Shown piece after piece: positions 42,258-62,675 of a DNA stretch of 64,000 bases (positions are counted from its first letter, which is position 1; every line of letters starts with the position of its first letter). Source of the stretch: Candidatus Zixiibacteriota bacterium (GTDB taxonomy: Bacteria > Zixibacteria > MSB-5A5 > GN15 > FEB-12). Position numbers and translations under genes: made by a program. The stretch spans positions 124,001 through 188,000 of the forward strand of contig JAVEYB010000006.1 of NCBI GenBank assembly GCA_034003725.1. Reading direction: 5' to 3'. The notes under the pieces are model-generated. The model saw nothing but the letters and a program-made list of their open reading frames with translations, did not search any database and was not told the origin of the DNA.

Positions 42258-42266
42258 AGTATCTGT

Positions 42267-43454: not shown

Positions 43455-43473
43455 ACTCGTGGAGGAATGACCG

Positions 43474-44139: not shown

Positions 44140-44164
44140 CAATCTCCTGCCCCCCTCGGCAGGA

Positions 44165-44192
44165 CATGCGGCAGCCCGTCGGCTGCCGCATG
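44165..44192. terminator. Hairpin between convergent genes
   Basis: CATGCGGCAGCC-CGTC-GGCTGCCGCATG is a perfect 12-pair stem with a 4-base loop between the regulator stop (44139) and the aminotransferase stop (44200). It lacks a T-run but is well placed as a bidirectional transcript end. Confidence 0.6.
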
Positions 44193-44199
44193 CCGTCCA

Positions 44200-45660: not shown

Positions 45661-47087
45661 ACCTTCGCTCCTTCCAAACGACCAACGGGCTCGAAACTCT
45701 CCAATACGTCCCCGATCGACTTGGCGGCGTCTCCGAACAACAACAGCGTCGTCGGCTCATCGTACAGCGAGTTCGGCACCCCGGAGTAACCCGGCCGTTC
45801 GTCGAGATTGAACACAAGCACGCGCTTCGCCTTGTGCGCGTTGAGAATGGGCATGCCCGAAATCGGCGTGTCAGCCTTCATGATGGCCGCCGGATTCACC
45901 ACGTCACACGCCCCGATTACCAGCACCACGTCCGTATCCGCAAACTCGGGGTTGACCTCGTCCATTTCCCGAAGCAAGTCGTAATCGATTTCCGCCTCAG
46001 CCAACAGAACGTTCATATGACCCGGCATGCGACCCGCGACGGGGTGAATCGCGAAACTGACCTTCTTCCCCATGCGCATGAGGATGCGACACAAATCCGC
46101 CACCAGAAACTGCGCCTTGGCCAGCGCCATCCCGTATCCCGGTACGATAATGACGCTGCGCGCCTGCCGAAGAACGTCCTTCGCCTCAGCCATGGCATCC
46201 GAAAAGCTCCGAACGACCCGTGTGACCGACGGCTTCTCCTCGGCGACCGCCGGGTGCCCGGCCGCTGCCGGCGCCGCCTTGTTGCCCGACAGCACGCGCA
46301 CGAAGCTTCGGTTCATCGCCTTGCACATCACCGCCGTCAGGATCGAACCCGAAGCCGCGACCGTCGCCCCGCACGCGATCAACAGCTGATTCTGGATCAC
46401 GATGCCGCAAAACGCCGCCGCCAGTCCCGCTGTGGCGTTCAAAAACGAGATCAGCACCGGCATGTCGGCGCCGCCGATCCGGACTGAGAATACCCAGCCG
46501 AGAAAGATCGACGCCACAAGAATGCCGATCAGCACGGGAATGGCGCCTGAAGGCGACGTTGCGGCTGCTACCACGCAAAGACCCGCAATCACGGCCAGTA
46601 CGAGCAACAACACGGCGTTGTGATTCGGTAGTATCGTCGGCGTCTGCCGGATCTTCGCAGCCAGCTTGGCGCTCGCCAGCATCGACCCGCTGAAGGTGGC
46701 TGCCCCGATCACCAGCCCGAGATATCCTGACACTTCCCCGAGCGCCGTCATCTCCGCGTGCGACCGCGTCAACTCGACCAGCGCGACGGTGCACGCCGCC
46801 ACGCCGCCGGCGCCGTGCTGAAATGCCACCATGGCCGGGATCTGTATCATCGTCACCCGCGCGGCAACGACTATACCGACTGCGCCGCCGACAAGCAGCG
46901 CCACGGCCAGCCACGAGAGCCCATGGATCGTATGGGTCGACAGAACCAACACAATCGCGCCCAGCAGCGCCACCGAGGCGGTAAGGTTGCCCCATCGAGC
47001 ACCACGCGGAGTGCGAAACAGTCGAATGCCGACGATTAATAAGGCGATAATCGCCAGCTCCAGAACGAGTCTCAAAGTATTATCCAT
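45657..47087 (-). CDS. pntB: NAD(P) transhydrogenase subunit beta
   Basis: This 476-residue protein has nine membrane helices in the first ~270 residues (domain II) and a C-terminal NADP-binding domain III (VIIVPGYGMALAKAQF, FAIHPVAGRMPGHMNVLLAEA, ADTDVVLVIGACDVVNPAA). ATG 47087 is preferred over 47138. The protein is the proton-translocating partner that drives NADPH formation. The 259 bases before it (47088-47346) carry no gene I can support, a long gap inside an otherwise tight operon. Confidence 0.95.
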   Translation of the reverse strand: MDNTLRLVLELAIIALLIVGIRLFRTPRGARWGNLTASVALLGAIVLVLSTHTIHGLSWLAVALLVGGAVGIVVAARVTMIQIPAMVAFQHGAGGVAACTVALVELTRSHAEMTALGEVSGYLGLVIGAATFSGSMLASAKLAAKIRQTPTILPNHNAVLLLVLAVIAGLCVVAAATSPSGAIPVLIGILVASIFLGWVFSVRIGGADMPVLISFLNATAGLAAAFCGIVIQNQLLIACGATVAASGSILTAVMCKAMNRSFVRVLSGNKAAPAAAGHPAVAEEKPSVTRVVRSFSDAMAEAKDVLRQARSVIIVPGYGMALAKAQFLVADLCRILMRMGKKVSFAIHPVAGRMPGHMNVLLAEAEIDYDLLREMDEVNPEFADTDVVLVIGACDVVNPAAIMKADTPISGMPILNAHKAKRVLVFNLDERPGYSGVPNSLYDEPTTLLLFGDAAKSIGDVLESFEPVGRLEGAKV

Positions 47088-47346
47088 GCGTATTACCCCG
47101 ATCAAGCTGCTCCTCGGTACGTGCACGGCGTGCACCACTGCCTCGTTCCAACCTCCGACACGATTGCCCGATCGGAGCAGATATTTGGTTGCGGTACTTC
47201 ACGTGTGCTTCACAGCCGCGCCGCGCCAGGAATGGTACGCCAGGATCGCCCTGTGGCGGTCGAGATGGGGCCCGCCACCGCGACAACGGACATCCGATGT
47301 CACGCAGACGGGAGCCCTGGACGCGGCGGCGACTGTGAAACGCCAT

Positions 47347-47655
47347 TTAACGGTCCTCGCCTTTCACGTGTGGATCCTCGTGCGTCTTGAACAGACGCGT
47401 CATCCGGTCCGTGATCACGAATCCGCCGATCAGGTTGAAAGCTGCCGTCACAAGCGCAAGCATGCCGACAAGCCTCAAACCCGTTCCCGACGGCACCGTG
47501 AACAACAGGATGGCGCCCAGGATCGTCACGGCCGATACCGCATTCGTCATCGACATCAGCGGCGTGTGCAGCAGCGGAGGAACCCGCGATATGAGCAAAT
47601 AGCCCACTCCGAACGCCACGACAAACACGGTCAGCATCAGTAGTAGATCAGCCAC
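47347..47655 (-). CDS. pntAB: NAD(P) transhydrogenase alpha subunit part 2, membrane
   Basis: This 102-residue protein has three membrane helices (LLLMLTVFVVAFGVGYLLI, VSAVTILGAILLF, LRLVGMLALVTAAFNLIGGFVI) and the family segment PPLLHTPLMSMTNAVS. In three-subunit transhydrogenases this part is separate from the soluble NAD-binding domain, as here. It starts 21 bases after pntAA. Confidence 0.93.
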   Translation of the reverse strand: MADLLLMLTVFVVAFGVGYLLISRVPPLLHTPLMSMTNAVSAVTILGAILLFTVPSGTGLRLVGMLALVTAAFNLIGGFVITDRMTRLFKTHEDPHVKGEDR

Positions 47656-47676
47656 GGTACTTCTCCTTTGGGTCGA

Positions 47677-48849
47677 TTACTTCGCCGCCACGGTTTCATG
47701 CATAGCCTCAAGCGCGGGCCCGTAGACAATGCTGCCGTCTTTGGTAACGAGCGACGCTTGGACGATTTCGTCGGCGAGATCGGGCGTCCGGGATCCCTTC
47801 TTGAACAGGTTCTCGATGTAGTAGTACATGTTGTTGGCGTAAAGCCACGACGACTGCATCGGCATACGACCCGGAAGGTTCTGCACGCCGCACACGCGAA
47901 CGTCGTGCTTGACCACGTCCTGTCCCGGCTTCGTGAGTTCGCAGTTCCCGCCCTGGTCGATGGAGATGTCGATGATCACGGAACCCGGCTTCATACACGC
48001 CACCGCCTCCTCGGTCACGATGGTGGGAGCCAGTGAACCGGGAACGAGGGCCGACAGAACCATGATGTCGACCTCATGGGCCATGTCCCGAATCGCTTTC
48101 TGCTCCTTCTTCAGCCAGGAGTCGGGAAGCTGCTTCGCATAGCCGCCCTCGGCAATCGCCAGCTCGGCCGGAACATCGAAACCCTCGACCTTCGCGTTGA
48201 GACTGGACGCTTCCTGTCGGGCCGACTCCCGGATGTCCCATGCCTTGACGACCGCACCGAGTCGCTTGGCCGTCGCAATGGACTGCAACCCCGCAACGCC
48301 GGCGCCGATCACCAGTACCGTCGCGGGCTTTATCGCGCCGATCGCCGTCCCCACCATCGGAAGGAACCGCGGAAGATACTCGGCCGCGTCGAGCACCGCC
48401 CGATAACCGGCCACCGTACTCATCGAGGTCAACGCATCCATGCGCTGCGCGCGCGATATCCGGGGGATACCATCCATCGTGAACGAACAGATGCCGCGAG
48501 CGGCAAGCTTGCGGACCATCTCATGGCTGTCCGGTGAGGCCGGATGCAAAAAGGTCACCAGGATAGCTGACGAAGGCATCATGTCCACTTCGTGCTTCCC
48601 GACTTCCTCGTTGAAAATCGGCTGCTTCACCTTCAGGATCACGTCAGCCTTGCTGAACAGATCCTCAACCTTCGATACAATCTCGGCACCGGCTTTCTCG
48701 TAGGCCGCATCGGTCACGAAAATACCCGCTCCCGCTCCCGACTGCACCGCTACCTCATATCCCAGCTTGCGAAACTTCTCCACTGTCTCCGGAATGGCTG
48801 CAACGCGTCTTTCGGCATGCAGAATCTCTTTGGGAATGGCTATACGCAT
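47677..48849 (-). CDS. pntAA: NAD(P) transhydrogenase alpha subunit part 1, NAD-binding
   Basis: This 390-residue soluble domain I has the AlaDH/PNT N-terminal motif RIAIPKEILHAERRVAAIPE and the Rossmann motif VLVIGAGVAGLQSIATAKRLGAVVKAWDIR, then GSVIIDISIDQGGNCELT. The full set pntAA-pntAB-pntB is present. It couples NADH oxidation to NADP reduction using the proton gradient. Upstream by 31 bases is an unknown gene likely in the same transcript. Confidence 0.95.
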   Translation of the reverse strand: MRIAIPKEILHAERRVAAIPETVEKFRKLGYEVAVQSGAGAGIFVTDAAYEKAGAEIVSKVEDLFSKADVILKVKQPIFNEEVGKHEVDMMPSSAILVTFLHPASPDSHEMVRKLAARGICSFTMDGIPRISRAQRMDALTSMSTVAGYRAVLDAAEYLPRFLPMVGTAIGAIKPATVLVIGAGVAGLQSIATAKRLGAVVKAWDIRESARQEASSLNAKVEGFDVPAELAIAEGGYAKQLPDSWLKKEQKAIRDMAHEVDIMVLSALVPGSLAPTIVTEEAVACMKPGSVIIDISIDQGGNCELTKPGQDVVKHDVRVCGVQNLPGRMPMQSSWLYANNMYYYIENLFKKGSRTPDLADEIVQASLVTKDGSIVYGPALEAMHETVAAK

Positions 48850-48880
48850 GGTAATCTCCTTGTTTTTGTTTGATCGTTCC

Positions 48881-49693
48881 TCAGGCCCGCTGCCCGGCCA
48901 GCGATTGCTCTTCCGTCGTCACCCGCCCCAACAGCCCGTCGCAAACACGCGCGAGCGCCCCGTTGAAGGCGTCAAGACTCGAAAAACGCCATTCGCGCTG
49001 CCAGATCTTGTGATTGACCTCGTGACCGGGGTCGTTGAGCAGAGTCTCGCCCAGCTTCCAGGGCGACACCGTGAGGTTGTAACGCTGGTTCGTCAGATGA
49101 GCCGGCAAAAGCGATAGTTCCTGAATGGACCGAAGCCCCTGCTCGAACGGCATCCCTTCGGTGCCGCGAAGATACCATTCCGGATTGGGCGTCCCCTCGT
49201 TCGGTTCGCCGTCATACCAGTTCAGCGTTACGAGTACCGCGGTGTCATCGGGCCAGAAAGGCAACACACAGTGGAACTCGATGCGCAGGTCGTCGGCCGT
49301 ATATCCTGACGCGGAGACGCCGAGCGCCACCAGCGGCTCCCGAGACATGGCGCCGCCCGGACGACTTGCACCGTGGGCTCCCCGACCGAGATGCTCATAC
49401 GCCTCGAGCGTCGACGCCGCCTGGTGGGAATAGACGGGAAACTTGACCGTGTTCGGCAATCCACCGTCGGCAAGCTTGTGAGGAAAACTCTCCGAGGATA
49501 GACCCGCCACGTGCCGCTTGACACCGTCAAAAGGAACTTCGACCTGCACCGGTGTCGGTGTCCAGATGGGAAACTCACAGGGAGCCAGTTCGGAGTAGGT
49601 TGCCTGCACAACCGCATCTCCGGCCCTGATCAGCAAATCGGTGGTGGCACCGTGCTGCTTCAGGACCCGTGCTTCAACTCGCTGACCCTTCAT
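48881..49693 (-). CDS. Protein of unknown function upstream of pnt operon
   Basis: I do not recognise this 270-residue protein. It has no signal peptide or membrane helix. Features: a beta-rich N-terminal segment (RVEARVLKQHGATTDLLIRAGDAVVQATY), several Trp/Pro-containing stretches (EFPIWTPTPVQVEVPF, VLPFWPDDTAVLVTLNWYDGEPNEG) and a helical C-terminal end. GGAGG nine bases before the ATG supports the start. Shared strand and short spacing with pntAA point to a cytoplasmic protein expressed with the transhydrogenase. Confidence 0.6.
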   Translation of the reverse strand: MKGQRVEARVLKQHGATTDLLIRAGDAVVQATYSELAPCEFPIWTPTPVQVEVPFDGVKRHVAGLSSESFPHKLADGGLPNTVKFPVYSHQAASTLEAYEHLGRGAHGASRPGGAMSREPLVALGVSASGYTADDLRIEFHCVLPFWPDDTAVLVTLNWYDGEPNEGTPNPEWYLRGTEGMPFEQGLRSIQELSLLPAHLTNQRYNLTVSPWKLGETLLNDPGHEVNHKIWQREWRFSSLDAFNGALARVCDGLLGRVTTEEQSLAGQRA

Positions 49694-50119
49694 GATCTGA
49701 AACCTCCATTAAGGTGTGCGCATGAACCAATGTCGCCTGTTCACTCCGATTACCACCCCGGAGGGGTGCCAACCGGGGCACTCGCCCCTGGCTGTGATGC
49801 TGCTCGCGGACGCGACTTTTGGCTCGTTTGTTTCATTTGTCATGAAGTAACGGCATCTGCCGTGGCGCGGCTATCGGGCGCCACCGGATAATCGGAGAGG
49901 CTAATCAGGAAAGACAGGGTGACTTCCGGATTAGCGCGTTTCGGTCATTGACTTATGATTGATGTATCAGAGGATGAGGCTGGGTACGAAAATGGCGCGG
50001 TGGAAATTAGGGGTTTTCCCTAGATCCGCGGCGGTCAGACATTCGTGGAAAAACTCTTTCAGCTCAGTTAATGCGTCGGCGATGCCCTCGGAATCCGCAG
50101 GCGCGCGCATGAGTGCAGA
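49694..50119. other. Intergenic region upstream of pnt operon, with hairpins
   Basis: This 426-base gap holds CACCCC-GGA-GGGGTG (49754-49768), GGGGC-ACTC-GCCCC (49775-49788) and a longer dyad GCTAATC-A-GGAA ... TTCC-G-GATTAGC (49900-49935). The last could be an operator for the minus-strand operon that starts at 49693. No ORF or RNA gene is convincing. Confidence 0.5.
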
Positions 50120-50809
50120 CTACCCAAGTCCGGACTGAATAACCGCGTTGTATAGCTTCTGCATCCGCATATCGGTCGCCGAAATCACGTCGGCGCAGTC
50201 TTTCAACTCCCTGGTGATCTGCTCTGTCTGTTTGTCAGCAAGACGATACGCCAACTCATGCTCCAGCGACGCCCAGAAATCCATGGCAATGGTGCGGAGT
50301 TGAATCTCGACTTTGACCGACTCGGGGCCTGATGACATGAATACAGGTACGGCAATAATCAGATGCAGGCTGCGATAACCGTTAGGCTTTGGGTTCTTGA
50401 TGTAGTCTATTTCCCGAATCAACTCGATATCGCTCTGCGATGTTAACAAGGTGGCCACCAGATACAGATCGTCGACATACGAACAAATCACGCGGACTCC
50501 TGCGATGTCGTGGATGTTCTGCCGAGCCGACGCCAGGGTCATTTCGTGGCCCTTTCTAGCCAGCTTCTCCACTATCCGCCTGGGGGTCTTCACGCGCGCC
50601 GTGACCTGATGGATCGGGTTGTGATGCTGGCTGTACTTGAACTCGTCGTTGAGATTCTCCAGCTTGGTCACTATCTCGCGGGTCGCCGATACGTAGATGT
50701 GTTCTGTTGACAAAAACGCGCGGATCTGCTCCGAGGCTTCCTCACCGAACGTTTGATCCAACAGCTTATCTAGAAAGTAAGTCTCTCTGGAGCGATTGAT
50801 AGAGTCCAT
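50120..50809 (-). CDS. Small alarmone (ppGpp) synthetase, RelA/SpoT-domain
   Basis: This 229-residue protein has only the synthetase domain: RVKTPRRIVEKLARKG, IHDIAGVRVICSYVDDLY, the substrate loop YIKNPKPNGYRSLHLII and EIQLRTIAMDFWASLEHELAY with the catalytic Glu. There is no HD hydrolase or TGS/ACT domain, so it is a RelQ/RelP-like small synthetase. ATG 50809 has GAGGTGAGC upstream; the frame extends to 51085 but the extra residues are unrelated. A single gene at the left edge of the accessory segment. Confidence 0.9.
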   Translation of the reverse strand: MDSINRSRETYFLDKLLDQTFGEEASEQIRAFLSTEHIYVSATREIVTKLENLNDEFKYSQHHNPIHQVTARVKTPRRIVEKLARKGHEMTLASARQNIHDIAGVRVICSYVDDLYLVATLLTSQSDIELIREIDYIKNPKPNGYRSLHLIIAVPVFMSSGPESVKVEIQLRTIAMDFWASLEHELAYRLADKQTEQITRELKDCADVISATDMRMQKLYNAVIQSGLG

Positions 50810-51115
50810 TATGCTCACCTCGTGTTGCCGGCATTTCGCTGTCCCGTTTGTTGGGCATTCGTAACGTACGGCGAGTCGCCGGAATAGGCAAGCCGGTGAC
50901 GTGGAGTGAAAGAGGGTCGGTGATTGTTCAGTGGAGGCCGACCGATTGCCTGGCGCAGCGGGGTGAAGCGCAATGCTGATCTCGCACGATCGTCGGGCGA
51001 GACGCCTGACCGAAATCGGACAACTGTCGGAAAGCCCGAGTCGATCGAATGGGAGATCTCTTCGCCGTTGTCGACAGCTGCACACATGTATTCTGACCTA
51101 TCGGCCACATTTAAT

Positions 51116-51190
51116 GAGGTGGGGAAATTGAACCCCATACTCGCGTTGCGAAACAAGGACTTACACTGTATTGTGACCAAATTGTGACCG
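51116..51190. repeat. tRNA/tmRNA 3'-end-like repeat A (attachment-site remnant)
   Basis: Read on the minus strand, GGGGTTCAATTTCCCCACCTC has the form of a T-arm plus 3' acceptor strand. Next to it are CATACTCGCGTTG, CAAGGACTTAC and a pair of TTGTGACC repeats 11 bases apart (51171, 51182). Repeat B at 54048 is closely similar. This looks like an attachment-site copy left at an island boundary. The rest of the 50810-51211 gap shows nothing more. Confidence 0.6.
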
Positions 51191-51211
51191 ATTTTCACTT
51201 TTCCTTTCGAT

Positions 51212-52090
51212 TCAAGGCGCACTGCTGCGGGGATACCGAAACATGTCACCGGGTTTCTCCGGGCATTCAATGAGGTATTCAAGTCCATTTTCTTTGCACT
51301 CTTCAAAAAATTCTTTATAGGCTTGCTCTCTCCCACCATAATGCATCGGAAAAACGACTTCAGGTTTCAGTCTCGCCATTATTTTCAATATTCTCGTCGA
51401 AGCCTCGCCCCACCGTCGTGTATGCGACCCAAGAAAGGCCATGTCTACGGAGTCGCATTGTTCTAGCAAGTAATCAAGGTCGGCTATCGAATCGGTCTTA
51501 TAGTCACCTTGAAAGAAAATGGTCAGGCCGTCGGTTCTGATCAGATACGCCACTTCCGGGACGCCCGACAGGCAGTTGATTGTATATATATCCATATTGC
51601 CGATTTGAAGCGACGCCCTCGGACCGACAAGATGGTAATGACTGGTGTCATCAGTGGCCTGCCATCCGAAGATGTAGGTCACTCGGTCGACTTCCTTCTG
51701 CCAGTTGAGAATGATCGAGTCAAAGTGATCTTCATGGCTGTGGGTAACGAATACATATACGTCCAGGTCTCCGATTTCGGCTGGGTTGATTCGCCCGGTT
51801 GCCAGCGATGGCACTGATATAGTATCCGGGAAGTCGCGCGTCGAGCGCACGTAGTCAAAAATCAGCAGTTTAGTCCCGGTTCTGACCGCATAGCCGCAGT
51901 GAAGAAGATACCAAACATATGCCTCATCGTTCCCCAGTGGTTGCTGAAGCAGCGACCGGATCGAGCTGGAAGTGTTGGAATCAATGACTTGTGCAGTGCC
52001 GGAGTTTTGGGCTGCCCCGACCCGGGTCGTAGCCCAAGAGATGCTGGCTATAACGACAGCAATAGAGAGAACAGCCTTCAGGGCCATCAA
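51212..52090 (-). CDS. Secreted metallo-beta-lactamase-fold hydrolase
   Basis: This 292-residue protein has a signal peptide (VLSIAVVIASISWATTRVGA) and the MBL metal motif VFVTHSHEDHFDS (HxHxDH). Later elements of the fold include FFQGDYKTDS and FPMHYGGR, the last probably carrying a metal-binding His. Similar to UlaG/YtnP-like lactonase-type enzymes only at fold level, so the substrate is unknown. Eight bases after the PD40-MBL fusion gene, it is probably cotranscribed with it. Confidence 0.8.
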   Translation of the reverse strand: MMALKAVLSIAVVIASISWATTRVGAAQNSGTAQVIDSNTSSSIRSLLQQPLGNDEAYVWYLLHCGYAVRTGTKLLIFDYVRSTRDFPDTISVPSLATGRINPAEIGDLDVYVFVTHSHEDHFDSIILNWQKEVDRVTYIFGWQATDDTSHYHLVGPRASLQIGNMDIYTINCLSGVPEVAYLIRTDGLTIFFQGDYKTDSIADLDYLLEQCDSVDMAFLGSHTRRWGEASTRILKIMARLKPEVVFPMHYGGREQAYKEFFEECKENGLEYLIECPEKPGDMFRYPRSSAP

Positions 52091-52097
52091 CTCTCCC

Positions 52098-53819
52098 TCA
52101 GTGTTCGTTGTTGGTGATCAGGTCGGATATCTTGAGTGTGCTTCCGACTCCCAGATCCAGGCACCGATTGCCGAACCGGTTCTTAAAACGCTCTCGTGCC
52201 AGATCCCCCGAGCAGTGACAGGGGCCAATGTACTTCACCAGGCCCTCCAATTTCGTTGCCAGAACGTCAATCATTTCTTGCGATTCGGCGGCGAGGTGGA
52301 ACCCACCCATAACCAGCAGGATCGGCTCTTCTGTCAATTCCGAGATCCTGTGCACAATCCGTTCAATTCCAGGGTGTGCACATCCAGTGATAAGCACTGC
52401 CCCAGCGTCGGTGTGGATGATGAGACCTTCTTCATGAATTCCATTTCCTACCGGTCCAGTAGTTGTGACTCCGGCACAAAGAGATGTCGGCGTTTCAACG
52501 TAGATAACATCGCCTGCAAGATTCGTAGCAGAGTCGATCGTTGACAGAGCTCGGCCGGCAATGTTGCCGGACGATCCGCCACAGGGGAGGAACAACTTTG
52601 CCTGCCGCTGCGAAGCACGCATCACGGACGGCAGTCCCCCGATATGGTCGGCGTGGCAGTGAGTAACCGCTATCATGTCAATCTCCTGCGGATTATATCC
52701 GCCGGCCGCCATATTCGACACCAGCAGTTCACCGTCCCCCCCGGCATCGAGCAACAGAGTTTCGTTGCCGGCTTCGATCAAGCAAGAGAAACCATGTGCC
52801 GGTGACATACGGTCGTTGTGAGAGTTGTTGTCATATAGGATATGCAATTCGACTGCACTCGCTGGGAGACACTTTCCTGTGTGCGATCCGGACGACGGTG
52901 ACACCCACGAAGGCCAGTAATCATTCGCCGGGTGGTTGATCAGATTCCTCAGATTTGAACCATCGGCGTCCATTGCGTAGATTTCGAAATTGCCGTCCTT
53001 CATGGTTTGAAAGGCGATTTGTCTTCCATCGGGAGACCAGACCGGATTTTCCTCCACACCGTCAAAGTCGGTCAGCGTAATTTCATGAGTGCCGTCAACA
53101 TTCATAACGTGTATGTCACCCTGAAATTGCCGTGCCGGGCCACTGCGGAAAGCCAGCCGGGTGCCGTCGGGTGACCATGAAACACCGGTTTCATCAAGAT
53201 CCGAGGTTGTCAGCCTGCGGAGACCGCTTCCGTCGGTGTTAACAACATAGACTTCCCAATTGCCGTCACGGTTGGAGCTGAAGCTGATCTGCCTTCCGTC
53301 CGGTGACCAGTTTGGCCAAAGCTCTTCGGCCTCATTGTTAGTGAGACGTTGCCAGTTGGTGCCGTCGGCATCCATGACGTGTATTTCGTAATTGCCATCA
53401 CGATCCGACTGAAAGGTTATTTGCCCGCCATCGGGCGACCATTTGGGCTGGCGCTCAACGCTTGGCAGACTGGTCAGACGCTGTTCGGTCCCGGAAACAA
53501 GATCCAGCAGATAGAGGTCTGAGTTGCCATCGCGGAGAGAGACGAAAACAATGCGTGTTCCATCAGGCGAGATATCCGGACACTTCCCTCCGTCCTTACC
53601 CTTTGTAACCAGCTCAACGTTGCTTCCGTCGGCGTTCATGATAAAAATATCGTCGCGACCGTTTCGTGGCGAATAAAATGCGATCTTGCCATCAAGATTC
53701 TGACCCATTATCGGCGATGATATCAGAACAAGGATGCATACAAGTACTCGACATGCAGCTTGATATTTCGACTCAGACTCTCTTCCGGCCGTTTGTCTTA
53801 CTTTCTTTCCGATGTTCAT
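52098..53819 (-). CDS. TolB/PD40 beta-propeller fused to metallo-beta-lactamase domain
   Basis: The product has 573 residues with a signal sequence or membrane anchor (VLVCILVLISSPIMGQ). Six or seven PD40 units follow (~45-310), each with the core WSPDGRQIAFxSxRDGNxEIYVMxADG. After a short linker the C-terminal ~250 residues are an MBL domain with VTHCHADHIGGLP and TGCAHPGI, of the group annotated as dihydropteridine or MBL-fold metallohydrolases. It is the first gene of a two-gene operon in the segment between repeats A and B. Confidence 0.82.
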   Translation of the reverse strand: MNIGKKVRQTAGRESESKYQAACRVLVCILVLISSPIMGQNLDGKIAFYSPRNGRDDIFIMNADGSNVELVTKGKDGGKCPDISPDGTRIVFVSLRDGNSDLYLLDLVSGTEQRLTSLPSVERQPKWSPDGGQITFQSDRDGNYEIHVMDADGTNWQRLTNNEAEELWPNWSPDGRQISFSSNRDGNWEVYVVNTDGSGLRRLTTSDLDETGVSWSPDGTRLAFRSGPARQFQGDIHVMNVDGTHEITLTDFDGVEENPVWSPDGRQIAFQTMKDGNFEIYAMDADGSNLRNLINHPANDYWPSWVSPSSGSHTGKCLPASAVELHILYDNNSHNDRMSPAHGFSCLIEAGNETLLLDAGGDGELLVSNMAAGGYNPQEIDMIAVTHCHADHIGGLPSVMRASQRQAKLFLPCGGSSGNIAGRALSTIDSATNLAGDVIYVETPTSLCAGVTTTGPVGNGIHEEGLIIHTDAGAVLITGCAHPGIERIVHRISELTEEPILLVMGGFHLAAESQEMIDVLATKLEGLVKYIGPCHCSGDLARERFKNRFGNRCLDLGVGSTLKISDLITNNEH

Positions 53820-54047
53820 TGTTTATTAGACGAGTCGTGAAAGCAAATGTTACGCTCCACTATCTTGAGTCACCCACCTACCTTGGTCTGGTCTTTACAG
53901 GATAAACCTGTGACTAAACTGTGTCCTCAATCGTCGTAAGTTATTGCACGATATTCAGAGTTATAGCAGTGGGACGGGGGTATAAGTAAATGATCCAACA
54001 TATTCTACCTCCATAAGCTATTGATTTACAATTGGTTATACAAAATA

Positions 54048-54122
54048 GGGGTGGCGGGAATCGAACCCCATACTCGTGTTGTGGCACAAGGACTTACTGG
54101 TCATTGTGATCAAATAGTGACG
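54048..54122. repeat. tRNA/tmRNA 3'-end-like repeat B (attachment-site remnant)
   Basis: Minus strand reads GGGGTTCGATTCCCGCCACC, a clear T-loop/acceptor signature. It shares with repeat A the blocks AACCCCATACTCGxGTTG, CAAGGACTTAC and two 11-base-spaced repeats TTGTGATC/TAGTGACG (54104, 54115). No complete tRNA can be folded here. It lies in the otherwise featureless 53820-54207 gap. Confidence 0.65.
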
Positions 54123-54207
54123 CATCTGGCGGGCCTCAGAACCGGAACAATGGACTGGCGACTCACAGGCAATTTGACAGCGAAAGCCTTGACGCCGTGA
54201 GTAGCCC

Positions 54208-55651
54208 TTAGCGATCTCCCGTAATCAATTTCTCGATGTTCTTCTTCAAATCGTCGTAAGCACCGCTATCCTGATTCGAGAAGATAATGAACGTGACATC
54301 GACTTCAGGAAAATAGCGCGCTTCAAAATTGATCCCCGGCGCCTGTCCACCATGACCATAAGACACGACCCGTTGCCCTTTCAAGCCCAAGGTGAAACCG
54401 TAGCCATAGGGGAATTTGTCCTCCAAGCCGCTGTTCTTGGGTGTGATCATCTCTGCCACTGATGACTCTTTGAGAACGGTTCCATTCTTCAGCCCACGCA
54501 TGAATCTGAGCATGTCTCGCGGCGTCGAGTAACCACCCCCAGCTGAACTTCCGCGAAGTCCGTGACTTGCTTCAACCCACCCCGTCTTCCCCTTCGACAA
54601 AGGCTCAGCCAATGTTGTGTCTGACGACAATTTCAAATACGAATCCGTCTCGGTCATCCCAAGCGGCCGATAAATATGTTCTCGAACATAGTCGAAGTAA
54701 TCAGCCGATGCCATCTTCTGGATAATGGCTCCTGCAAGTATGAATCCCGAATTGCTGTATTGGAACTTCGTGCCGGGAGCAAAGGTGGGTGTATCGACGT
54801 GAACAAACGGCATCATCTGCTCGACTTGAGAGATACTGTCCCAGGCCCGCTCATACGTATCAGTCCAGTAATCGCCGAGCCCGGCCGTATGAGAAGAGCA
54901 AGTGATGGACGGTAGCCGATCTGACAAACTGCTGGTGCGGATAGTCTGGAAAGTAGCGGGAAAGCGTGTCCGTCAGCTTGAGCTTTCCGGCATCTCGAAG
55001 CTGCATTATCGCCAGCGCCGTAAACATCTTGTTGCCGGAACCAAGATTGAGGCGGGTCGATGGTCCTATTCTTCTGGTCCGGGCAACATCTGCAAATCCC
55101 GTGTACCGCTCATAGACGACCGAATCGCCTCGCGCGATCAGAATGGCTGATGCCAGATCATTCTCTTTGACCAATTTGTCGACATAGCTGTCTAACCACC
55201 GAAGAGTGAACGGATCTTCAATCCGCCCATTGGGGAGATAGATCGGTTCTGTTACGTCCGCGATGAATACGATCTTGAGCAGTTTCGGTTCGGCCCCGGA
55301 GGTCAGCCCGAATTGAAAGTCATGCCACTGCTTGTCCTTCAGCGACTGAGCGAATATGTGTAGATGGTTTCCTGTCGACTCACTGTGGTGATACGTTAGC
55401 TCACCGAAGTCACTGTGAATCCGTTCAAAGAGCCCAAGCAGTCGCTCATTGCCGAGTTCCTCAATCAAAGAAGCATCATAGATATTGTTGACCGCTGCAA
55501 GTCTTTCCACTCGAGTTGTATCATTCACTCCGCGCACAAAATCTGCCCCGAGAATATTAAGTACTGAATCAGCACGCTGAGCCGCGACCATCGCCTTGGT
55601 CGAGACTGTGAGAGTTGCCAGTAGGGCGCAGATCGTTAAAAGTGCCTTCAT
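54208..55651 (-). pseudogene. Serine hydrolase (class C beta-lactamase-like), single-base frameshift
   Basis: The gene starts at ATG 55651 with a signal peptide and reads through SxxK motif S-G-N-K (LNLGSGNKMFTALAIM) to TVHHLL, near 54895. There an extra base shifts the frame; the other frame continues SHTAGLGDYW to the stop at 54208. The YxN motif (YSNSGF) and HGG motif (YGHGGQAPG) lie in the second part, so all three catalytic motifs of the penicillin-binding-like hydrolase are intact. Combined length is about 480 residues with an N-terminal extension before the hydrolase domain. Either a recent inactivating mutation or a sequencing error; I favour a real single-base insertion without proof. 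Confidence 0.75.
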
Positions 55652-55962
55652 TATTTTGTCACTCCCTTGTTACACAATAACCCAACAATAATATAATTGA
55701 AGCGCGAGGGCTATTCCGAAATGGCTATCGAGAGGAGTCTAAGAGTGTATGGGTTATGGTCACACTTGCCGGCACGTCCAGTCCGGGAACTCCTCGGCGG
55801 GCTTGAGGACGTTGCGGGGCATGCATCCGCGTCTCCTGAGATACCTATTATACTAGGTAAGCAAATAAACAACGACAACAGCGGCTGACCATGCACCTGC
55901 TTCCAGTATGACTGAACCTCCCCGGGCTTGCCGGAGACAGAATTATGTGAGAGATTACGCAT
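55652..55962. other. Intergenic region with no supported gene
   Basis: AT-rich next to the serine hydrolase start, then GC-rich. Small frames on both strands (for example 55697-55888) have no recognisable motif. Confidence 0.5.
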
Positions 55963-56196
55963 ATGGCAAGACCAAGCAGGTATTCACCGGAGGTCCGGGA
56001 ACGGGCCGAGCACCTGGCCCGGAACAATGCGCGGCGCGATGCGCTCCAATTGCTCGCAACGCTACAATGGATCGCGCCGCCACACTGTTCATGGGTTCAA
56101 GACTGGGCTGCAAGTGAGCTGCGGAAGATCAGAGTGGCCGAGAAGGGCTGTCAATTACCGGTTCATGACTCCGCCACAGAAGGATTGGACCGATGA
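55963..56196 (+). pseudogene. IS3-family transposase OrfA remnant
   Basis: The start MARPSRYSPEVRERA is the typical N terminus of an IS3-type OrfA. The rest is scrambled by frameshifts: pieces such as ATLQWIA and SELRKI in this frame and LFMGSRLGC in another correspond to the HTH region in intact OrfA proteins. OrfB is absent. It is evidence of past insertion-sequence activity inside island 2. The stop overlaps the start of the next gene by ATGA. Confidence 0.55.
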
Positions 56197-57770
56197 CCGA
56201 AAATCACTCAAACTACCAATCTGTAAGACCGGGCCGGAAGGCCTTACCGCTCGGCCTGGCGTTGCTTTTCACAGTTGTCTCCTGTTTATGCAATTGTTCC
56301 CAGTCAAATGAGTCACAGCGGTTTAAGAATTACGTTCAATCGCATGCCGTTTCTTCGACAGAGGCCTATATCCTGGACGCACTCACGCGCAACCGCGTCG
56401 TCCTGCTCGGGGACAACGCCCATGGTCAATGGCAACCGCGCGAGACAGTCATTGATGGACTGCTGTATTGGTTCGCGCTTGCATCAGCGGATTCAGTAGT
56501 CGAGAGCTCTATCCCGCGCGACCTGTCGCTGGTACTGGAGCTCGATTCACTGTCGGTGGGCCGGGTTGAGAAGTATATGGTGAGTGGCGATCCGAGCGAT
56601 ATTCTCACTCTGCCACTTATATGTTCCGGAGTCTTCACCACCGCCGACCTGGAGTTTTTCGATAGACTGGGGCAACTGCGCGCCCGCGTAAACGCGTTCA
56701 ATCAGAAGGCGTCTGATGATCGGCGGATCTCATTTGCCGTATTGCCAGGCGAGCCGACAATTGACAGGGCCACCTGGTCCTTCGACAAACGGTCCTACTA
56801 CTTCATGCACGAACGCGATTCACTTGTAGCGCGAAGAATAGAGTCCCTTCTGTCTCGTCCTGGTGCGGGTCATCTCTTGCTCTTCTACGGCGAGGCCCAC
56901 CTGCAGAAGGGCAAGGTGACGAAGCGGGCAGACGACAAGGAATTCCAGGGGTTGTACTTGGCATCGTACCTCGACTCTGCGCTGCCCGATTCCTTTATGA
57001 CCATAGGTCAGGTAACTCCGGACTACTGGGGCGTCTGGCGGAACGACTTCGCCACCAACACTGCGGCGTACGCACTTCCGATTTCCGGAGTGAAAGAGAA
57101 AGTAGGCGCGTTTGTGTCCGGACCGCACCGATACGATGCAGTCATCGTTCACAATCACCGCGTGATCAGCGGCACACCGATCCTGCAGATTCCGTCGATG
57201 AACGTCACTCGGCTGTGTGTCCAAGCGCTTGACTCGATTGTTGACCCTGAGGATGATTTCAGTAGGGCATATTGGCCGCTGCTTCTCCCGTATCTTAACG
57301 CTGTCTCTGGTCAACTCCCGCACCGTCTTGACCTGAATAGTAAGGATGCCTTAGCCGATGAGGCAAAAGCCTGGTCGTCCTGGTTGATTTCCGCACCGCA
57401 CAGCGTGGCACCAAAGGTGGCGGATCTGACGATGTATACCGGGATCCTCGACCGCCTGTCGCAGGCCACCGGACCGCTGGCAGGCCGATACGACCATCAA
57501 TTCACATCGCTTCTTCCCGACTCGCCCGCCCTTGAGAGAGGGGACAACATGCCGACCCCTGCCGAAAGGGCTTCTCAACTCCGCCAATTCCTACATGCAA
57601 ATTCAGAAGAGATTGTGATACATGCGTTAATCGAATTACTTTGGGTTGGTTCGAAGGAAGAACGCGATGAGGCCGAGTCGCTGTTGCGACAATGCACCGG
57701 CGTGGATGTGGGAGATCGGTCGGCTTGGTCCGAGTGGTATCGCACGAAGAATGTGCCCCCCTCACGCTGA
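56193..57770 (+). CDS. Lipoprotein of unknown function
   Basis: This 525-residue protein has a hydrophobic signal (LGLALLFTVVSCLCNC-S) that may be a lipobox. Early in the mature part is RNRVVLLGDNAHGQWQPRETVIDGLLYWFA, and later HLLLFYGEAHLQKGKV; these paired motifs resemble the EreA/ChaN-like erythromycin-esterase fold, but the similarity is weak and I would not assign activity. The C-terminal part is helical. It lies between attachment-site remnants B and C and has no obvious operon partner. Confidence 0.6.
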   Translation: MTENHSNYQSVRPGRKALPLGLALLFTVVSCLCNCSQSNESQRFKNYVQSHAVSSTEAYILDALTRNRVVLLGDNAHGQWQPRETVIDGLLYWFALASADSVVESSIPRDLSLVLELDSLSVGRVEKYMVSGDPSDILTLPLICSGVFTTADLEFFDRLGQLRARVNAFNQKASDDRRISFAVLPGEPTIDRATWSFDKRSYYFMHERDSLVARRIESLLSRPGAGHLLLFYGEAHLQKGKVTKRADDKEFQGLYLASYLDSALPDSFMTIGQVTPDYWGVWRNDFATNTAAYALPISGVKEKVGAFVSGPHRYDAVIVHNHRVISGTPILQIPSMNVTRLCVQALDSIVDPEDDFSRAYWPLLLPYLNAVSGQLPHRLDLNSKDALADEAKAWSSWLISAPHSVAPKVADLTMYTGILDRLSQATGPLAGRYDHQFTSLLPDSPALERGDNMPTPAERASQLRQFLHANSEEIVIHALIELLWVGSKEERDEAESLLRQCTGVDVGDRSAWSEWYRTKNVPPSR

Positions 57771-58063
57771 CCACGAAATGACACTGATATTGCAGTTACT
57801 GACTTTCTTTCATTCCTTGGTCCCACAAATCTCGCATTTGAGGTTTCTAATCACAGCATTTCACTCTCGACTTTGAGAATTGCACGAAGACAACAAAGTC
57901 CATGAGCAAATTCGAGTGGTCGGTGAATTGCCGGAATTGGCACAGCGATTAGTACGTATTTGTAATCCGAAGAATACCTGAATGTTATGATATTGCATTG
58001 GAGGTGACCACACCGAACCCTTGACATATGTAGTATGTTGGTGTGCACCGATTCATAATCAAA

Positions 58064-58229
58064 TGGAGGTGGGGGGAATCGAAAAAGGCCCATTTTGCAA
58101 CTTTTTGACGGTCACCGACTTATGCGATAACTCGCTGAATCACAGCGAATTACAGCTTTTATGTGGTTTTGTGTGGTTCTGGAAAATCAGCGTGTTTTTC
58201 ATTCAAGTTGGCACAAATCTGGCACAAAT
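58064..58229. repeat. tmRNA 3'-end-like repeat C and 11-base-period repeats
   Basis: Minus strand at 58083-58064 reads TTCGATTCCCCCCACCTCCA, the usual form of a tmRNA 3' end. In the same gap TGGCACAAAT occurs twice exactly 11 bases apart (58209, 58220). It marks the left edge of the third island. The remaining part of the 57771-58240 gap shows no gene I can support. Confidence 0.65.
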
Positions 58230-58240
58230 TGAAGGGATGA

Positions 58241-60967
58241 TCATTCCCTCTCTTGAATAGGAACAGGCACACCGATTCTTGCCCTCACTTGTTCATAAAT
58301 TGGCAAGTCAACGTCCTCTTTGACTTCCAAAGTCACAGCAAGTCCATAGCAAACAGATTCATCTAGAGTTGAGGCATCCTCGCGACACTCGACCGGGATC
58401 AATAGAGCATCGCCTTCCTCAAATGAGGCAACTCTATGGCCGACGAATACTTCATGTTGCACGGTGCCTTTCCTGACCTTCTGCCAATCCGCTTCGATTC
58501 TATCATCAGCAATACCAATCTTGCTTGGTTCAAATGAAAGGTTGGCTTTACGATAGTTTCGATTCATGACATTGATTGGACTTAACCAGGCAAGGGTTAT
58601 CGTCAAACGTCGCGAGTCGTTGATACCATTTAAGCACGGAGGGAGCGGAAGCCTAAACTCGTGTCTCTCATCTTTTCCTATCCGACCGTACCCAAAAGCC
58701 GTTACTCGTTGATCGATGCATTCCAAGACCCTCCCTATGTCTGGCACTCCATATCCCAAGTATCTCGTCAAGGACTTTCTATCCAAGCTTCCGTTTGTAC
58801 ACAGATTCAGGGATTCCTGGCTTTTTCCCCATGAAGTGCCATGTACTAAGAGCGTCTTAATGATTGGTGCGATATTGTCGCGCGGTATGCTGACTTCGAG
58901 CTGTTGAGCTAATTCTTCGATTGACTCCCATATGAGCGCACTAGAACGTGATGCCAAAGCCGCTGCATTGCTAGTACCGCATGTATAAGTTGTGCGCGTT
59001 GTGTCACCACCAGTATTAGGTGCCGTAGCGACCCTTTGTCCTGGCGGAAGTATAGACCTATTAATTTGAGCAGAATTACCGTTAACAAAGTGATAGAACT
59101 GTCTGCCGGCCGGAATGTACATGTCTGGCTTTATAGATGATCGATAACCGAAGCCATATGGTGAAATTGGTGAAGGGAGATTCGAATCATGCAACAAATC
59201 GATACGATTTCCTGTTGCGCTGCCATTCGAACGATCCTTGTGTAGTGCCCCAGCAGTAATGGCATTCACCGATTCCGCTGGCGAAATGATCCGGTAATTT
59301 CTTGAGTTGGTATGTATGATGCCAATTGACCTTTTGGTTTGTTCCGCAGCGGGTAAAGCTAAGAACTCACTCTCCGAGAGCCCTATGTCGAGGTCGTCAA
59401 GGATATTTCCGGCACTTACACAAAACAGAAGCCCGTACTTATAAGAGAGCCAATCCAGTAATCGCGCCATCGAGCTCATTCGATGATAAAACACCTTAGC
59501 AGGATCACAGACCGACAAATTCACTATTCTGACTGACGGAGCGACCGGTTCGCTGCCGCCCGTGCCTTCAAATAGTCGTCGGACAGCCCTCTCGATCAAA
59601 TCTTCGAAAAACTCATCTTCAGGTATGTGTTCAATTCTGTTCAAACCGTTTCGATTAGGTGCCATGATAGGTCGCACGTATATCGGTCTATGAAGCGGTT
59701 CCTCCTGAGAATCGAGTTCTCCATGACATATCAAAGATGCCATCGCAGTTCCATGCCGCCGGTCGGTGGCCTGATATCTGCTGCTATAGTTATCTGGGTC
59801 GTCAAAACGGATGCGACCATCTAGCAGTGCATGATTGGTAAAGGGCACACCGTCGAACAGTGCCACGACCGGGTTTCCCGTTGTGGTCCCTGAAGTGAAT
59901 GATCCGGGTTCTCCATCAGGCATTATTTGCACTGCACATTGACCAGTCGGACGGAAGAACATGACATCATTACTTCGAAATAGGTCAACATAATGAGATT
60001 CTAACACTCCCTGGATTTTTGAAGCTGGAAGCTCTGCCTTTAAGGCACAAAACCTTATCTCATCAATAGTACATGATTTTATAACACGCCCCTCTTCCGC
60101 TGCAACAAGTCTTCGAACGTGCTCAATTGCATCGTCCCTTTTCGGATTATCCCCTCGATACCATAGTTCGACCTCGAAAGGCACGGCAATGTTCTGAGAC
60201 TGATAAAAGCTCAGGTTTGTTCGCCAGTATTCGATTACTCCGGTCTCTCTCAATCTATCCGAAACGTCCCAACGTCTTATATCTCTGAGGTAGGAGAAAA
60301 TTTCCGACCACTTCTGATATCCTCTTGGCAACCTCCTGTTAGAATCCCACTGTTGCCACAAGCGCAATAATTCGTCGATGGCCCCTTGATTGCTCATGCT
60401 CATAAATAGCCGACAAGATAGGCTCTTAGTAGGAACGGAAGCCTCCTCCAACACATCCATTATCCGCTGCTTCTCGGCGTCGAACTCAGGCGGTATCAGT
60501 GCAGCAAAACTTTCTAGCGGTTTGCTGGTCCTGAACCCAGTAGCATCTATGTATTCGTGTTCTTCAAGTAATTTCCACAATTCTGACGACTGTCGCGAAT
60601 TGATGTCTTCAATCTCGGAGTAGAGCAGTCGTTTGCCGATTCTCGGTGGCACATAAAAGTCTTCATCTGGGGTGATCGCATCAGCGTCAATTTCTGCCAG
60701 CCATTCAAGTCCCTGGATTGCCCTCGCGGCACGCGCAAAATCTTCAATTTCCCCAACTACCTCCAACACCAAGACGGTCTCGGGTTCAAGGCCTGCCGAG
60801 GAATCAGAGATAAGGGACTGCCTCATTCTGTCGAACTGCGGAGTCAATCTGTCTTTTTGACGACTAACATCGGGATAACGATAGTCAGGAGATCCGAAAC
60901 CGGTTGTCTTCTTGGTTCTCTCAATAGACCTGGGATTGGGGAAGATCAGGATAGGTTTTTCGGCCAT
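58241..60967 (-). CDS. ietS: S8 (subtilisin-like) serine protease, IetS-like
   Basis: This 908-residue cytoplasmic protease has no signal peptide. The catalytic triad is D372 (VVALFDGVPF), H405 (RRHGTAMASL) and S666 (CGTSNAAALASR). About 350 residues precede the protease domain and 240 follow it, the latter beta-rich. It is encoded 18 bases after an AAA ATPase on the same strand, the exact arrangement of the IetAS pair known from anti-phage screens and from Ti plasmid stability studies. Codon use is more AT-rich than in the first 50 kb, in keeping with transfer. Confidence 0.8.
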   Translation of the reverse strand: MAEKPILIFPNPRSIERTKKTTGFGSPDYRYPDVSRQKDRLTPQFDRMRQSLISDSSAGLEPETVLVLEVVGEIEDFARAARAIQGLEWLAEIDADAITPDEDFYVPPRIGKRLLYSEIEDINSRQSSELWKLLEEHEYIDATGFRTSKPLESFAALIPPEFDAEKQRIMDVLEEASVPTKSLSCRLFMSMSNQGAIDELLRLWQQWDSNRRLPRGYQKWSEIFSYLRDIRRWDVSDRLRETGVIEYWRTNLSFYQSQNIAVPFEVELWYRGDNPKRDDAIEHVRRLVAAEEGRVIKSCTIDEIRFCALKAELPASKIQGVLESHYVDLFRSNDVMFFRPTGQCAVQIMPDGEPGSFTSGTTTGNPVVALFDGVPFTNHALLDGRIRFDDPDNYSSRYQATDRRHGTAMASLICHGELDSQEEPLHRPIYVRPIMAPNRNGLNRIEHIPEDEFFEDLIERAVRRLFEGTGGSEPVAPSVRIVNLSVCDPAKVFYHRMSSMARLLDWLSYKYGLLFCVSAGNILDDLDIGLSESEFLALPAAEQTKRSIGIIHTNSRNYRIISPAESVNAITAGALHKDRSNGSATGNRIDLLHDSNLPSPISPYGFGYRSSIKPDMYIPAGRQFYHFVNGNSAQINRSILPPGQRVATAPNTGGDTTRTTYTCGTSNAAALASRSSALIWESIEELAQQLEVSIPRDNIAPIIKTLLVHGTSWGKSQESLNLCTNGSLDRKSLTRYLGYGVPDIGRVLECIDQRVTAFGYGRIGKDERHEFRLPLPPCLNGINDSRRLTITLAWLSPINVMNRNYRKANLSFEPSKIGIADDRIEADWQKVRKGTVQHEVFVGHRVASFEEGDALLIPVECREDASTLDESVCYGLAVTLEVKEDVDLPIYEQVRARIGVPVPIQERE

Positions 60968-60985
60968 AAACTACGCCCCGGCATT

Positions 60986-61942
60986 CTATGCCGAAAACTT
61001 GAGCCGCCACTGTCTTAAGGATTCTGAAACAATGGATTTGGCATCATCGTGCTTGTGCTGTAAAACCGCCCTGCGAACAACTTCCAAACAGAACTCTTCA
61101 ACTTCGGAATAGCTGCATCCCTTAAGTTTACTGGACAAGGTCTTTAAATTGTAATTGAAATTACACTTTGCCCGTTGAGAAACCGTCTTGATGAATGATT
61201 CAATTTGTGCCAATCCGGGGGTTGTGAGCTCCAATCGTATTTGAAACCGACGCCAAACGGCTCGGTCAAGAAGCTCCGGGTGATTGCTGGCTGTTATGAC
61301 CACAACATACGTGGGTAATCTATCCATTTGAAGGAGCAAAGAGCTCACGACGCGTTTGATTTCGCCAGTTTCCTTAGTATCTCCCCGCTCCTTGCCGATA
61401 GTGTCAAACTCATCGAAAAACAAGACGCAGTTTCTAGTTTTCACATGGTCAAAGACTTTTTGAAGTCGTGAGGCTGTCTCGCCCAAGTAGCTGCCGATTA
61501 GATTCTCATACCGAATCGTGAAAAAAGGGTACATCAAATGAGTCGCAATGGCTTCAGCCAAGCTGGTTTTGCCGTTACCAGGTGATCCTGCAAGGAGGAT
61601 TCGGTTGCGTGGTTCGAGTCCATGACTTCTTAGCAAGTCTGACCGATGTTGTTCTTCGATGAATTGTTGACAGATGACTTTGATTTCATCTTGAAGGAAC
61701 AAGTCGTCGAAGGTGCGATTTGCTTGCGACTCGAAAAGAAGATCCCTTGCTTCACCTCTCGATTGAATTGAGAATCCGTTGGACCCGCCATTACTGAGAG
61801 CACTTGCCAGTCTGTCAGCCAGCACATCGTGTTTCTTCGATCTTTCCTCAGCTATCAAGATTTCAACTGCCTTGCGAAACGCAACCATATCGCCTCGATT
61901 TGCAGATTGAACCAAAGACAGTAATATATCCGAGCGAGCCAT
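60986..61942 (-). CDS. ietA: AAA+ ATPase, IetA-like
   Basis: This 318-residue protein has a helical N-terminal ~90 residues, then a single AAA+ domain with Walker A at 119-126 (GSPGNGKT, K125), Walker B D177-E178 (VLFFDEFD), sensor 1 VITASNHPE and arginine finger RAVWRRFQIRLE, and a C-terminal lid. It is FtsH/spastin-like in sequence. Its partner is the protease downstream. In IetAS the ATPase is thought to control or feed the protease; no mechanism is visible in sequence alone. Confidence 0.82.
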   Translation of the reverse strand: MARSDILLSLVQSANRGDMVAFRKAVEILIAEERSKKHDVLADRLASALSNGGSNGFSIQSRGEARDLLFESQANRTFDDLFLQDEIKVICQQFIEEQHRSDLLRSHGLEPRNRILLAGSPGNGKTSLAEAIATHLMYPFFTIRYENLIGSYLGETASRLQKVFDHVKTRNCVLFFDEFDTIGKERGDTKETGEIKRVVSSLLLQMDRLPTYVVVITASNHPELLDRAVWRRFQIRLELTTPGLAQIESFIKTVSQRAKCNFNYNLKTLSSKLKGCSYSEVEEFCLEVVRRAVLQHKHDDAKSIVSESLRQWRLKFSA

Positions 61943-61972
61943 TATTTCACTTCCATATCGGGAATGCGATTT

Positions 61973-62179
61973 TCAAGCTCCACTGCTACTGAACTTTCGC
62001 ACCGTGGAAGGTGATTTTGACCGACTTTTCATCCACATATCAAGTTCAGCAGCATCGAAGCGCCAGATCCGGCCCGCTCTGTGTGCCGGGATACTTCGCT
62101 CGCGAGCCAACTTGTAAATTGTTGACTTGCCTAACTTCAAGTATTCAGCGGCCTCGCTCAGAGTCAGCCAGTTAGTCAT
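61973..62179 (-). CDS. Excisionase-family HTH protein
   Basis: This 68-residue protein is a MerR-like/HTH_17 domain: LTLSEAAEYLKLGKSTIYKLARERSIPAHRAGRIWRFDAAELDMWM, followed by a Ser/Lys tail. Two ATGs (62188 and 62179) are possible, the second fits the family better. It lies 30 bases upstream of the AAA gene, so it is likely the first gene of the ietAS transcript, serving either as its regulator or as an excisionase of the island. Confidence 0.8.
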   Translation of the reverse strand: MTNWLTLSEAAEYLKLGKSTIYKLARERSIPAHRAGRIWRFDAAELDMWMKSRSKSPSTVRKFSSSGA

Positions 62180-62288
62180 TTCTCGCATTCCAGTATTAAC
62201 AGTTAGCAACTAATAGTAAATAAGAGCAATTGACGGCTGTCAGTCAACAAGAAAACGGCTGGTGCATGAGAACGCCTGTAGTCCTGCT

Positions 62289-62471
62289 TCATCTCCCATT
62301 TATAGCTTTTGAATCAAGCCATCGGCCTACCTCACGCTCCCTGAACCGGACAAACCGCCCCAGCTTGAAATGCGGAATATACCCGATGTGAGTCCACTGG
62401 TAAATAGTGGAGAGCTTCACGCCGAGCAATTCCGAATAGCATTTCGACGGTGAAGCCGGAGTTTCCGGCAC
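62289..62471 (-). CDS. Damaged excisionase/AlpA-type HTH protein
   Basis: This 60-residue HTH_17 protein ends with ELLGVKLSTIYQWTHIGYIPHFKLGRFVRFREREVGRWLDS, a very typical sequence. The first helix is abnormal: residues SPSKCY replace the expected FTVEML, which appears intact in the neighbouring frame over the same bases, implying two compensating single-base changes. GTG 62471 is the only start in frame. Probably non-functional, but kept as a gene because the frame is open. Confidence 0.55.
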   Translation of the reverse strand: MPETPASPSKCYSELLGVKLSTIYQWTHIGYIPHFKLGRFVRFREREVGRWLDSKAINGR

Positions 62472-62614
62472 TCTGTCGAGCGGGTTGGGATTGAATCCAC
62501 ATATCTTCTTGGACGTAATCGTTTAGCTACGGCCTTGGTCGCATATAAGCGTTTTTCCGGCCTCGTAACTGTTTTTCTGCTTCTTCAGCGGTTGACCACG
62601 TGTAATTATTTTTC

Positions 62615-62644
62615 TTGACTTGCGTGTAAATTAAACAATATTTT
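62615..62644 (+). promoter_or_regulatory. Probable promoter of Fic gene
   Basis: TTGACT (62615-62620), 18-base spacer, TATTTT (62639-62644) in an AT-rich stretch. Direct repeats CGTGTAATTA (62599) and CGTGTAAATTA (62623) flank the -35 and could bind a regulator. Confidence 0.45.
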
Positions 62645-62675
62645 CCGTGTTGTAATCGATTTTCCGGAGGTAGCA

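Follow-up and report, generated by a model that had tools for sequence, protein, structure and literature searches.

Serial integration at the tmRNA gene ssrA as the probable origin of stacked accessory islands with two families of attachment sites in Zixiibacteriota

How an accessory region comes to hold three partial copies of one RNA gene, all on the same strand and none accompanied by the gene itself, is the question raised by the Zixiibacteriota DNA analysed here. The window, that is the whole 64-kb stretch under analysis, corresponds to positions 124001-188000 of contig C6 in the genome under study (G000), and the contig ends 7.5 kb to the right of it. At copies A, B and C the minus strand reads as the T-arm and acceptor end of a tmRNA, and three such copies in one orientation are far beyond chance. 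The initial annotation had placed same-strand ends resembling the 3′ part of a tRNA or tmRNA at about 51116, 54048 and 58064, and these were recovered at 51116, 54047 and 58064 (Table 1). It had also described them as standing without the rest of an RNA gene, in agreement with a search for tRNA and tmRNA genes in the window and the remaining 7.5 kb of the contig, in which none was found. The most plausible explanation is serial integration at ssrA by elements with two families of attachment (att) sites, and the probability of this reading is estimated at about 85%.

Table 1. Features in the window, with coordinates counted from its first nucleotide.
Feature	Position	Strand	Details
Accessory zone downstream of ssrA	15300..64000		left limit approximate; runs on for 7.5 kb to the contig end
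Copy A	51116..51193	minus	read as attR (far end) of an A/B-type cassette; model R1 79 bits, E 1e-23 in the window
Copy A, tmRNA T-arm/acceptor remnant	51116-51140
Copy A, arms	51170-51189		exact GGTCACAATTTGGTCACAAT; arm 20-mer, 0 expected
Metallo-beta-lactamase-fold protein, A-B cargo	51212..52090	minus	PF13483 E 5.5e-7
PD40/TolB-like beta-propeller fused to metallo-beta-lactamase domain, A-B cargo	52098..53819	minus	PF07676, PF00753
ssrA-proximal end (attL side) of A-B cassette	53904..54049	minus	conserved in relatives
Copy B	54047..54125	minus	read as attR of an A/B-type cassette; model R1 77 bits, E 4e-23 in the window
Copy B, arms	54103-54122		3 mismatches to GGTCACAATTTGGTCACAAT
Serine hydrolase, B-C cargo	54208..55651	minus	PF00144, broken over two overlapping frames
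525-aa protein without family, B-C cargo	56193..57770	plus	opposite orientation
Copy C region	58051..58231	minus	read as attR of the second, C-type family
Copy C, ssrA end	58064-58083	minus	20 nt, 20/20 identical to own ssrA tail
Copy C, arms	58208-58227		exact TTGTGCCAGATTTGTGCCAA
IetS (subtilase), IetAS defence system, right of C	58241..60967	minus	PADLOC E 3e-302
IetA (AAA ATPase), right of C	60986..61942	minus	PADLOC E 2e-143
Excisionase-family HTH protein, C-type element	61973..62209	minus	TIGR01764 E 2e-17
Second excisionase-family HTH protein	62289..62471	minus	TIGR01764 E 7e-10

The 20-mer TTCGATTCCCCCCACCTCCA occurs exactly at C and with 3 mismatches at B, and 100 dinucleotide shuffles yielded no match to it, even allowing 3 mismatches. 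A and B had been said to share further blocks on the island side, and about 72 nt are indeed common to both at 81% identity, extending past the tmRNA part. The A/B-type end is an 82-nt element end composed of GGTCACAATTTGGTCACAAT arms, a GTAAGTCCTTGTGCC block and then the tmRNA T-arm. Model R1 of this end was built from A, B and the copies of relatives, so that the scores of A and B against it are not independent. Copy C matches R1 over the tmRNA part only (E 0.027), since its island side belongs to another family, and A, B and C as a single series are ruled out by their differing island sides.

The initial annotation predicted that a target RNA gene and an integrase would be found beyond 64 kb. 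Neither Rfam nor a DNA comparison revealed ssrA in the own genome, both yielding only tRNA or chance matches; its tail came to light when the termini of small contigs with an integrase were inspected. The first 101 nt of contig C31 are the 3′ terminus of ssrA, with GGGGGTTCGATTCCCCCCACCTCCA as the final letters; the arms TTGTGCCAGATTTGTGCCAA come next, and directly thereafter a tyrosine integrase of 364 aa (207-1301, PF00589 E 4.7e-34); the 5′ part of ssrA is missing from the assembly. Both predictions thereby appear borne out, the target being ssrA and the integrase lying on a separate contig. The C31 arms recur exactly beside copy C, where 0.02 matches are expected at 3 mismatches, and in G001, of the same genus, an integrase with 65% identity to the one on C31 likewise comes after ssrA. 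Based on the identical arms and this ssrA-adjacent integrase in G001, we conclude that copy C is in all probability the far end of the element of the C31 integrase. C6 and C31 are separate contigs, and their joint, missing in the assembly, is deduced from the arms and the synteny.

The C-type end is also found elsewhere in the phylum. A copy located 3.3 kb downstream of ssrA in G015, which belongs to another genus, matches it at 91.7% over 181 nt, and G036, G040 and G066 have similar ends. Within the C element, positions 62340-62435 show 88% DNA identity to the ssrA-linked element of G015. Genes for an MT-A70 methyltransferase, Replic_Relax, a TraG/TraD-like ATPase, ThiF and a sigma factor are located to the right of the window (L011:8581-15269), and this gene content points to a mobilisable or conjugative type for the C element. 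Integron-integrase models score the C31 integrase far below cut-off. The own genome has a further island built in a similar way (L110, on G000:C25), in which an integrase, a second tyrosine recombinase and restriction-type genes come after a tRNA with CAT anticodon.

The setting of the copies is clarified by G001, in which ssrA lies at C4:622087-622455 and R1-type copies at 657.5, 662.0, 678.6 and 690.2 kb, that is 35-68 kb downstream of ssrA. From 704.7 to 741.8 kb G001 is colinear with the window from 15.3 kb leftwards, and right of about 15.3 kb this colinearity stops. Since order and orientation fit the succession of ssrA, accessory zone and backbone seen in G001, the accessory zone covers about 56 kb on C6 alone, and the 51-58 kb section is just a part of it. 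The claim of accessory islands at 51-58 kb therefore stands with respect to the copies, but the zone is much larger than proposed, beginning near 15 kb and continuing beyond the end of the contig. Among R1 sites within 70 kb of ssrA, all 26 of 26 are downstream of it and on its strand, as counted in a manual tally over ssrA-bearing contigs. Repeated integration at one target, as initially proposed, is supported by the ssrA synteny in G001 and other genera, though with two att families rather than one.

Two genes or gene blocks were considered as markers of the flanks. The pnt (transhydrogenase) block at 42300-49700 is 52-82% identical at the protein level to G009:C2 93551-100859, and a close relative of PntA was present only in G009 (82%) and absent from the other relatives searched. 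In G009 the pnt block is also located behind an ssrA array, but inverted relative to ssrA, and because of this opposite orientation PntA and its block were rejected as a backbone flank marker and are not evidence of backbone. A small RelA/SpoT-domain gene at the outer border of A (50120-50812), with a weak PADLOC match to PDC-S33, was rejected as a left-flank marker, having no match in 31 relatives. The congeners G014 and G036 have ssrA and its flanks in common and differ in the segments next to ssrA. These differences are at the species level, with borders not all at att sites, and they support segment turnover without proving site precision.

The A/B-type end is distributed across the phylum. 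R1 was found in 34 of the 54 genomes of the family at E 1e-4 and in 58 of 132 Zixiibacteriota genomes at E 1e-9, representing 40 of 85 genera; in the own genome A and B are the only matches reported. Copy A is 82-90% identical to copies in other genera. The named R1 matches are to Candidatus Zixiibacteriota or GN15 and to three MAGs labelled Aminicenantes, Bacteroidetes and KSB1 (L137, L139, L142), which may reflect transfer between phyla or mis-binned contigs. The pattern was absent from the viral contigs searched. A/B-type arrays far from ssrA were also observed (L059, L064, L066, L074), for example in G067 with six sites in 10 kb.

Between successive sites, or between ssrA and a site, 47 segments could be delimited with a median length of 2.6 kb, and arrays often consist of 1-8 kb segments. 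Similarity to the integrase queries was absent from 45 of them; the remaining two are the 35-kb element of G001 and a segment with a 38-aa remnant in G077. Cargo ORFs are mostly on the ssrA strand (66/91, from 41 segments) and encode, among others, serine hydrolases, Ser/Thr kinases with TPRs, S41 peptidases and metallo-beta-lactamase folds, with some defence-type genes in G014 and G036. Both cassette ends are 74-90% conserved across genera around this unrelated cargo. In the window, the proximal end of the A-B cassette (53904-54049) shows 74-78% identity over 163-222 nt to the DNA directly after ssrA in G011, G019 and G006, and matches the DNA after copies in G010 and G023 in the same range; over 53904-54069 the identity to G011 and G019 is 74-76%. 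In the B-C segment, the ORFs 54208-54927 and 54860-55651 match adjoining halves of PF00144, and the 525-aa protein gave no significant match in Pfam or NCBIfam. The cargo between the copies had been said to include a defence system and an IS remnant. The defence system is real, but IetAS (58241-61942) is located right of C and not between A and C, and the IS remnant at 55.7-56.2 kb found no support in Pfam or NCBIfam.

In serial integration at ssrA, elements would have inserted successively at the 3′ terminus of ssrA, which would be situated to the right, on the stretch missing from the assembly. Each integration would rebuild ssrA and leave the displaced ssrA tail behind as the far att site, and because of this displacement the newest element would be next to ssrA and A would be the oldest recognisable scar. 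C would be the distal terminus of a large element equipped with a tyrosine integrase of its own, that of contig C31. A and B would be the far ends of small cargo-only cassettes that have kept their att ends (arms and T-arm), have no recombinase and owe, or formerly owed, their movement to an integrase acting in trans, of the sort found beside ssrA in G003 and G061. The data show directly the scars and their orientation, the synteny with ssrA, the integrases next to it, the conserved ends and the lack of an integrase in nearly all cassettes, and recombination itself is deduced from them. Neither an excised circle nor an attP or a clean empty site was observed.

The position of the crossover may be read from displaced copies in G011 (L064 and L065), G067 (L059), G014 and G036 (L126 and L127), in which the T-loop is enlarged (TTCGCTNNGCTCAGCATCT..GACGA, roughly 26 nt). 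In these genomes ssrA itself is recognised intact by ARAGORN. As the enlarged loop is confined to displaced copies and ssrA is intact, the observation is most simply explained by a loop supplied by the element and a crossover 3′ of the loop, putatively just 3′ of the T-loop (ATTCCCCCCACCTCC). The enlarged loop as a dispersed REP-like repeat was rejected, since each of its ten matches in 8 genomes coincides with an R1 site or a copy of the ssrA tail. Different palindromic inserts in displaced tmRNA ends were seen in G019, G022 and G066.

An integrase matching the A/B family was found neither in the own genome nor in most of the array genomes. In G003 and G061, ssrA is followed by an A/B-like attL (proximal end) with GTCACAATATGGTCACA arms and then by an integrase; the two integrases are 85% identical and both are cut by a contig end. 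In G077 a decayed integrase remnant behind ssrA is followed by R1 sites. Judged by the shared ends, the odds are about even that integrases of the G003/G061 type would mobilise A/B-type cassettes in trans, and the elements of G003 and G061 are candidate parents of a CIME of the A-B type. The cassettes of the window itself may be dead, given the degenerate cores of A and B and a broken cargo gene.

One might ask whether A, B and C are att sites at all, and not local duplications, terminators or pseudo-tRNAs, as a hairpin can form from GGGGTTCGATTCCCC. The exact 20-nt ssrA tail, the conserved arms and the single orientation of the copies speak against this, as do the location of copies behind ssrA in other genera and the proximity of integrases, and given the synteny and the arm matches the non-att origins are strongly disfavoured and regarded as highly improbable. 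It is also improbable, if less so, that XerC/XerD or another host recombinase moves the A/B-type cassettes. The single contig of G067, with its many sites and only two tyrosine recombinases, both of Xer size, would agree with such a mechanism, but with their paired arms the ends look like attachment sites of an integrase, and in G003 and G061 an end of this kind stands beside a dedicated integrase.

Closer to serial integration at ssrA, with which it has the integrative core in common, is the view that A-B and B-C are ordinary integrative elements that, once integrated, decayed to CIMEs by losing their integrase and transfer genes, with no trans-acting cassette system; the difference concerns the origin of the small units. 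Decay would agree with the lack of the matching integrase in the own genome and in most genomes with arrays, with the decayed integrase behind ssrA in G077 and, in the window, with the broken serine hydrolase and the degenerate cores; accretion of CIMEs is an established route (PMC5704250). On the other hand, 45 of 47 segments are small (median as above) and devoid of any integrase trace, and ends so conserved on both sides of unrelated cargo across genera exceed what is expected of private decay products. We consider decay to CIMEs a serious possibility at somewhat short of even odds. In another view, ssrA could be an active integron-like platform at which cargo-only cassettes of 1-8 kb, with conserved paired ends and mostly ssrA-oriented cargo, circulating between genera, are taken up by a tyrosine integrase acting in trans, some displaced sites having an enlarged T-loop that is seen nowhere else in the tested genomes; this proposal is tentative, and we would not bet on it.

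Integron cassette arrays are composed of small, mostly co-oriented cargo units with conserved recombination sites between them and a fixed anchor. The Zixiibacteriota cassettes are likewise small, mostly co-oriented and separated by conserved sites behind an anchor, but in place of attC they have arm-type att sites that include a tmRNA tail. No intI or attI was found, and the A-B segment has no integrase gene. The nearest known case is the array of ssrA islands in Dehalococcoides, in which islands are in tandem behind ssrA, delimited by 20-bp repeats of the ssrA 3′ end with conserved DNA beside the repeat, 15 of 31 being without an integration module and the cargo including CRISPR modules (PMC3146451). 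Zixiibacteriota too have tandem islands behind ssrA with ssrA-end repeats. They differ in employing tyrosine integrases versus DsiB, which has been compared with the Ccr recombinases of SCCmec (PMC3146451), and in having segments of mostly 1-8 kb and two att families at one target, phylum-wide.

The nearest concept is that of CIMEs with accretion. CIMEs of the ICESt1 type keep attL and attR, have lost integration and transfer genes, are stacked by site-specific accretion and are described as decayed ICEs or IMEs (PMC5704250). The A-B segment appears to be of this kind, with attR at A, an attL-type end next to B, two hydrolases and no integration or transfer genes; the difference is that in Zixiibacteriota the small form dominates in many genera and its ends are conserved. 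In the islands detected by Islander, one end holds an intact RNA gene and the other a displaced piece of it with unchanged orientation; tmRNA is the target with the strongest enrichment, and every island must contain an integrase (PMC4383910). The C element has the displaced 3′ fragment at its far end in the same orientation, and the ssrA tail and the integrase on contig C31 are its probable other end; the A-B segment lacks an internal tyrosine integrase, and as one is required per island, Islander would omit 45 of the 47 segments. In tycheposons and tRNA-repeat additive islands, as described in a secondary source, the cargo follows a tRNA gene, and repeats of the 20 terminal bp of tRNA-Lys mark the additive island (PMC10872708); on that description they differ in their tRNA targets and larger islands from the tmRNA-linked stacks of Zixiibacteriota. 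A literature search combining Zixibacteria, genomic island and tmRNA found no paper mentioning Zixibacteria among the top ten matches.

We read the Zixiibacteriota stacks as a phylum-wide variant of the Dehalococcoides ssrA islands and of CIME accretion, with non-autonomous cassettes. These observations point to ssrA as a main entry point for acquired genes in a phylum with few cultured members, most of whose segments would escape island finders that depend on an integrase. The 82-nt end is a simple probe for cassettes, including those with defence genes, in genomes and metagenomes. If mobilisation in trans holds true, the cassettes would be a tmRNA-anchored counterpart of those in integrons.
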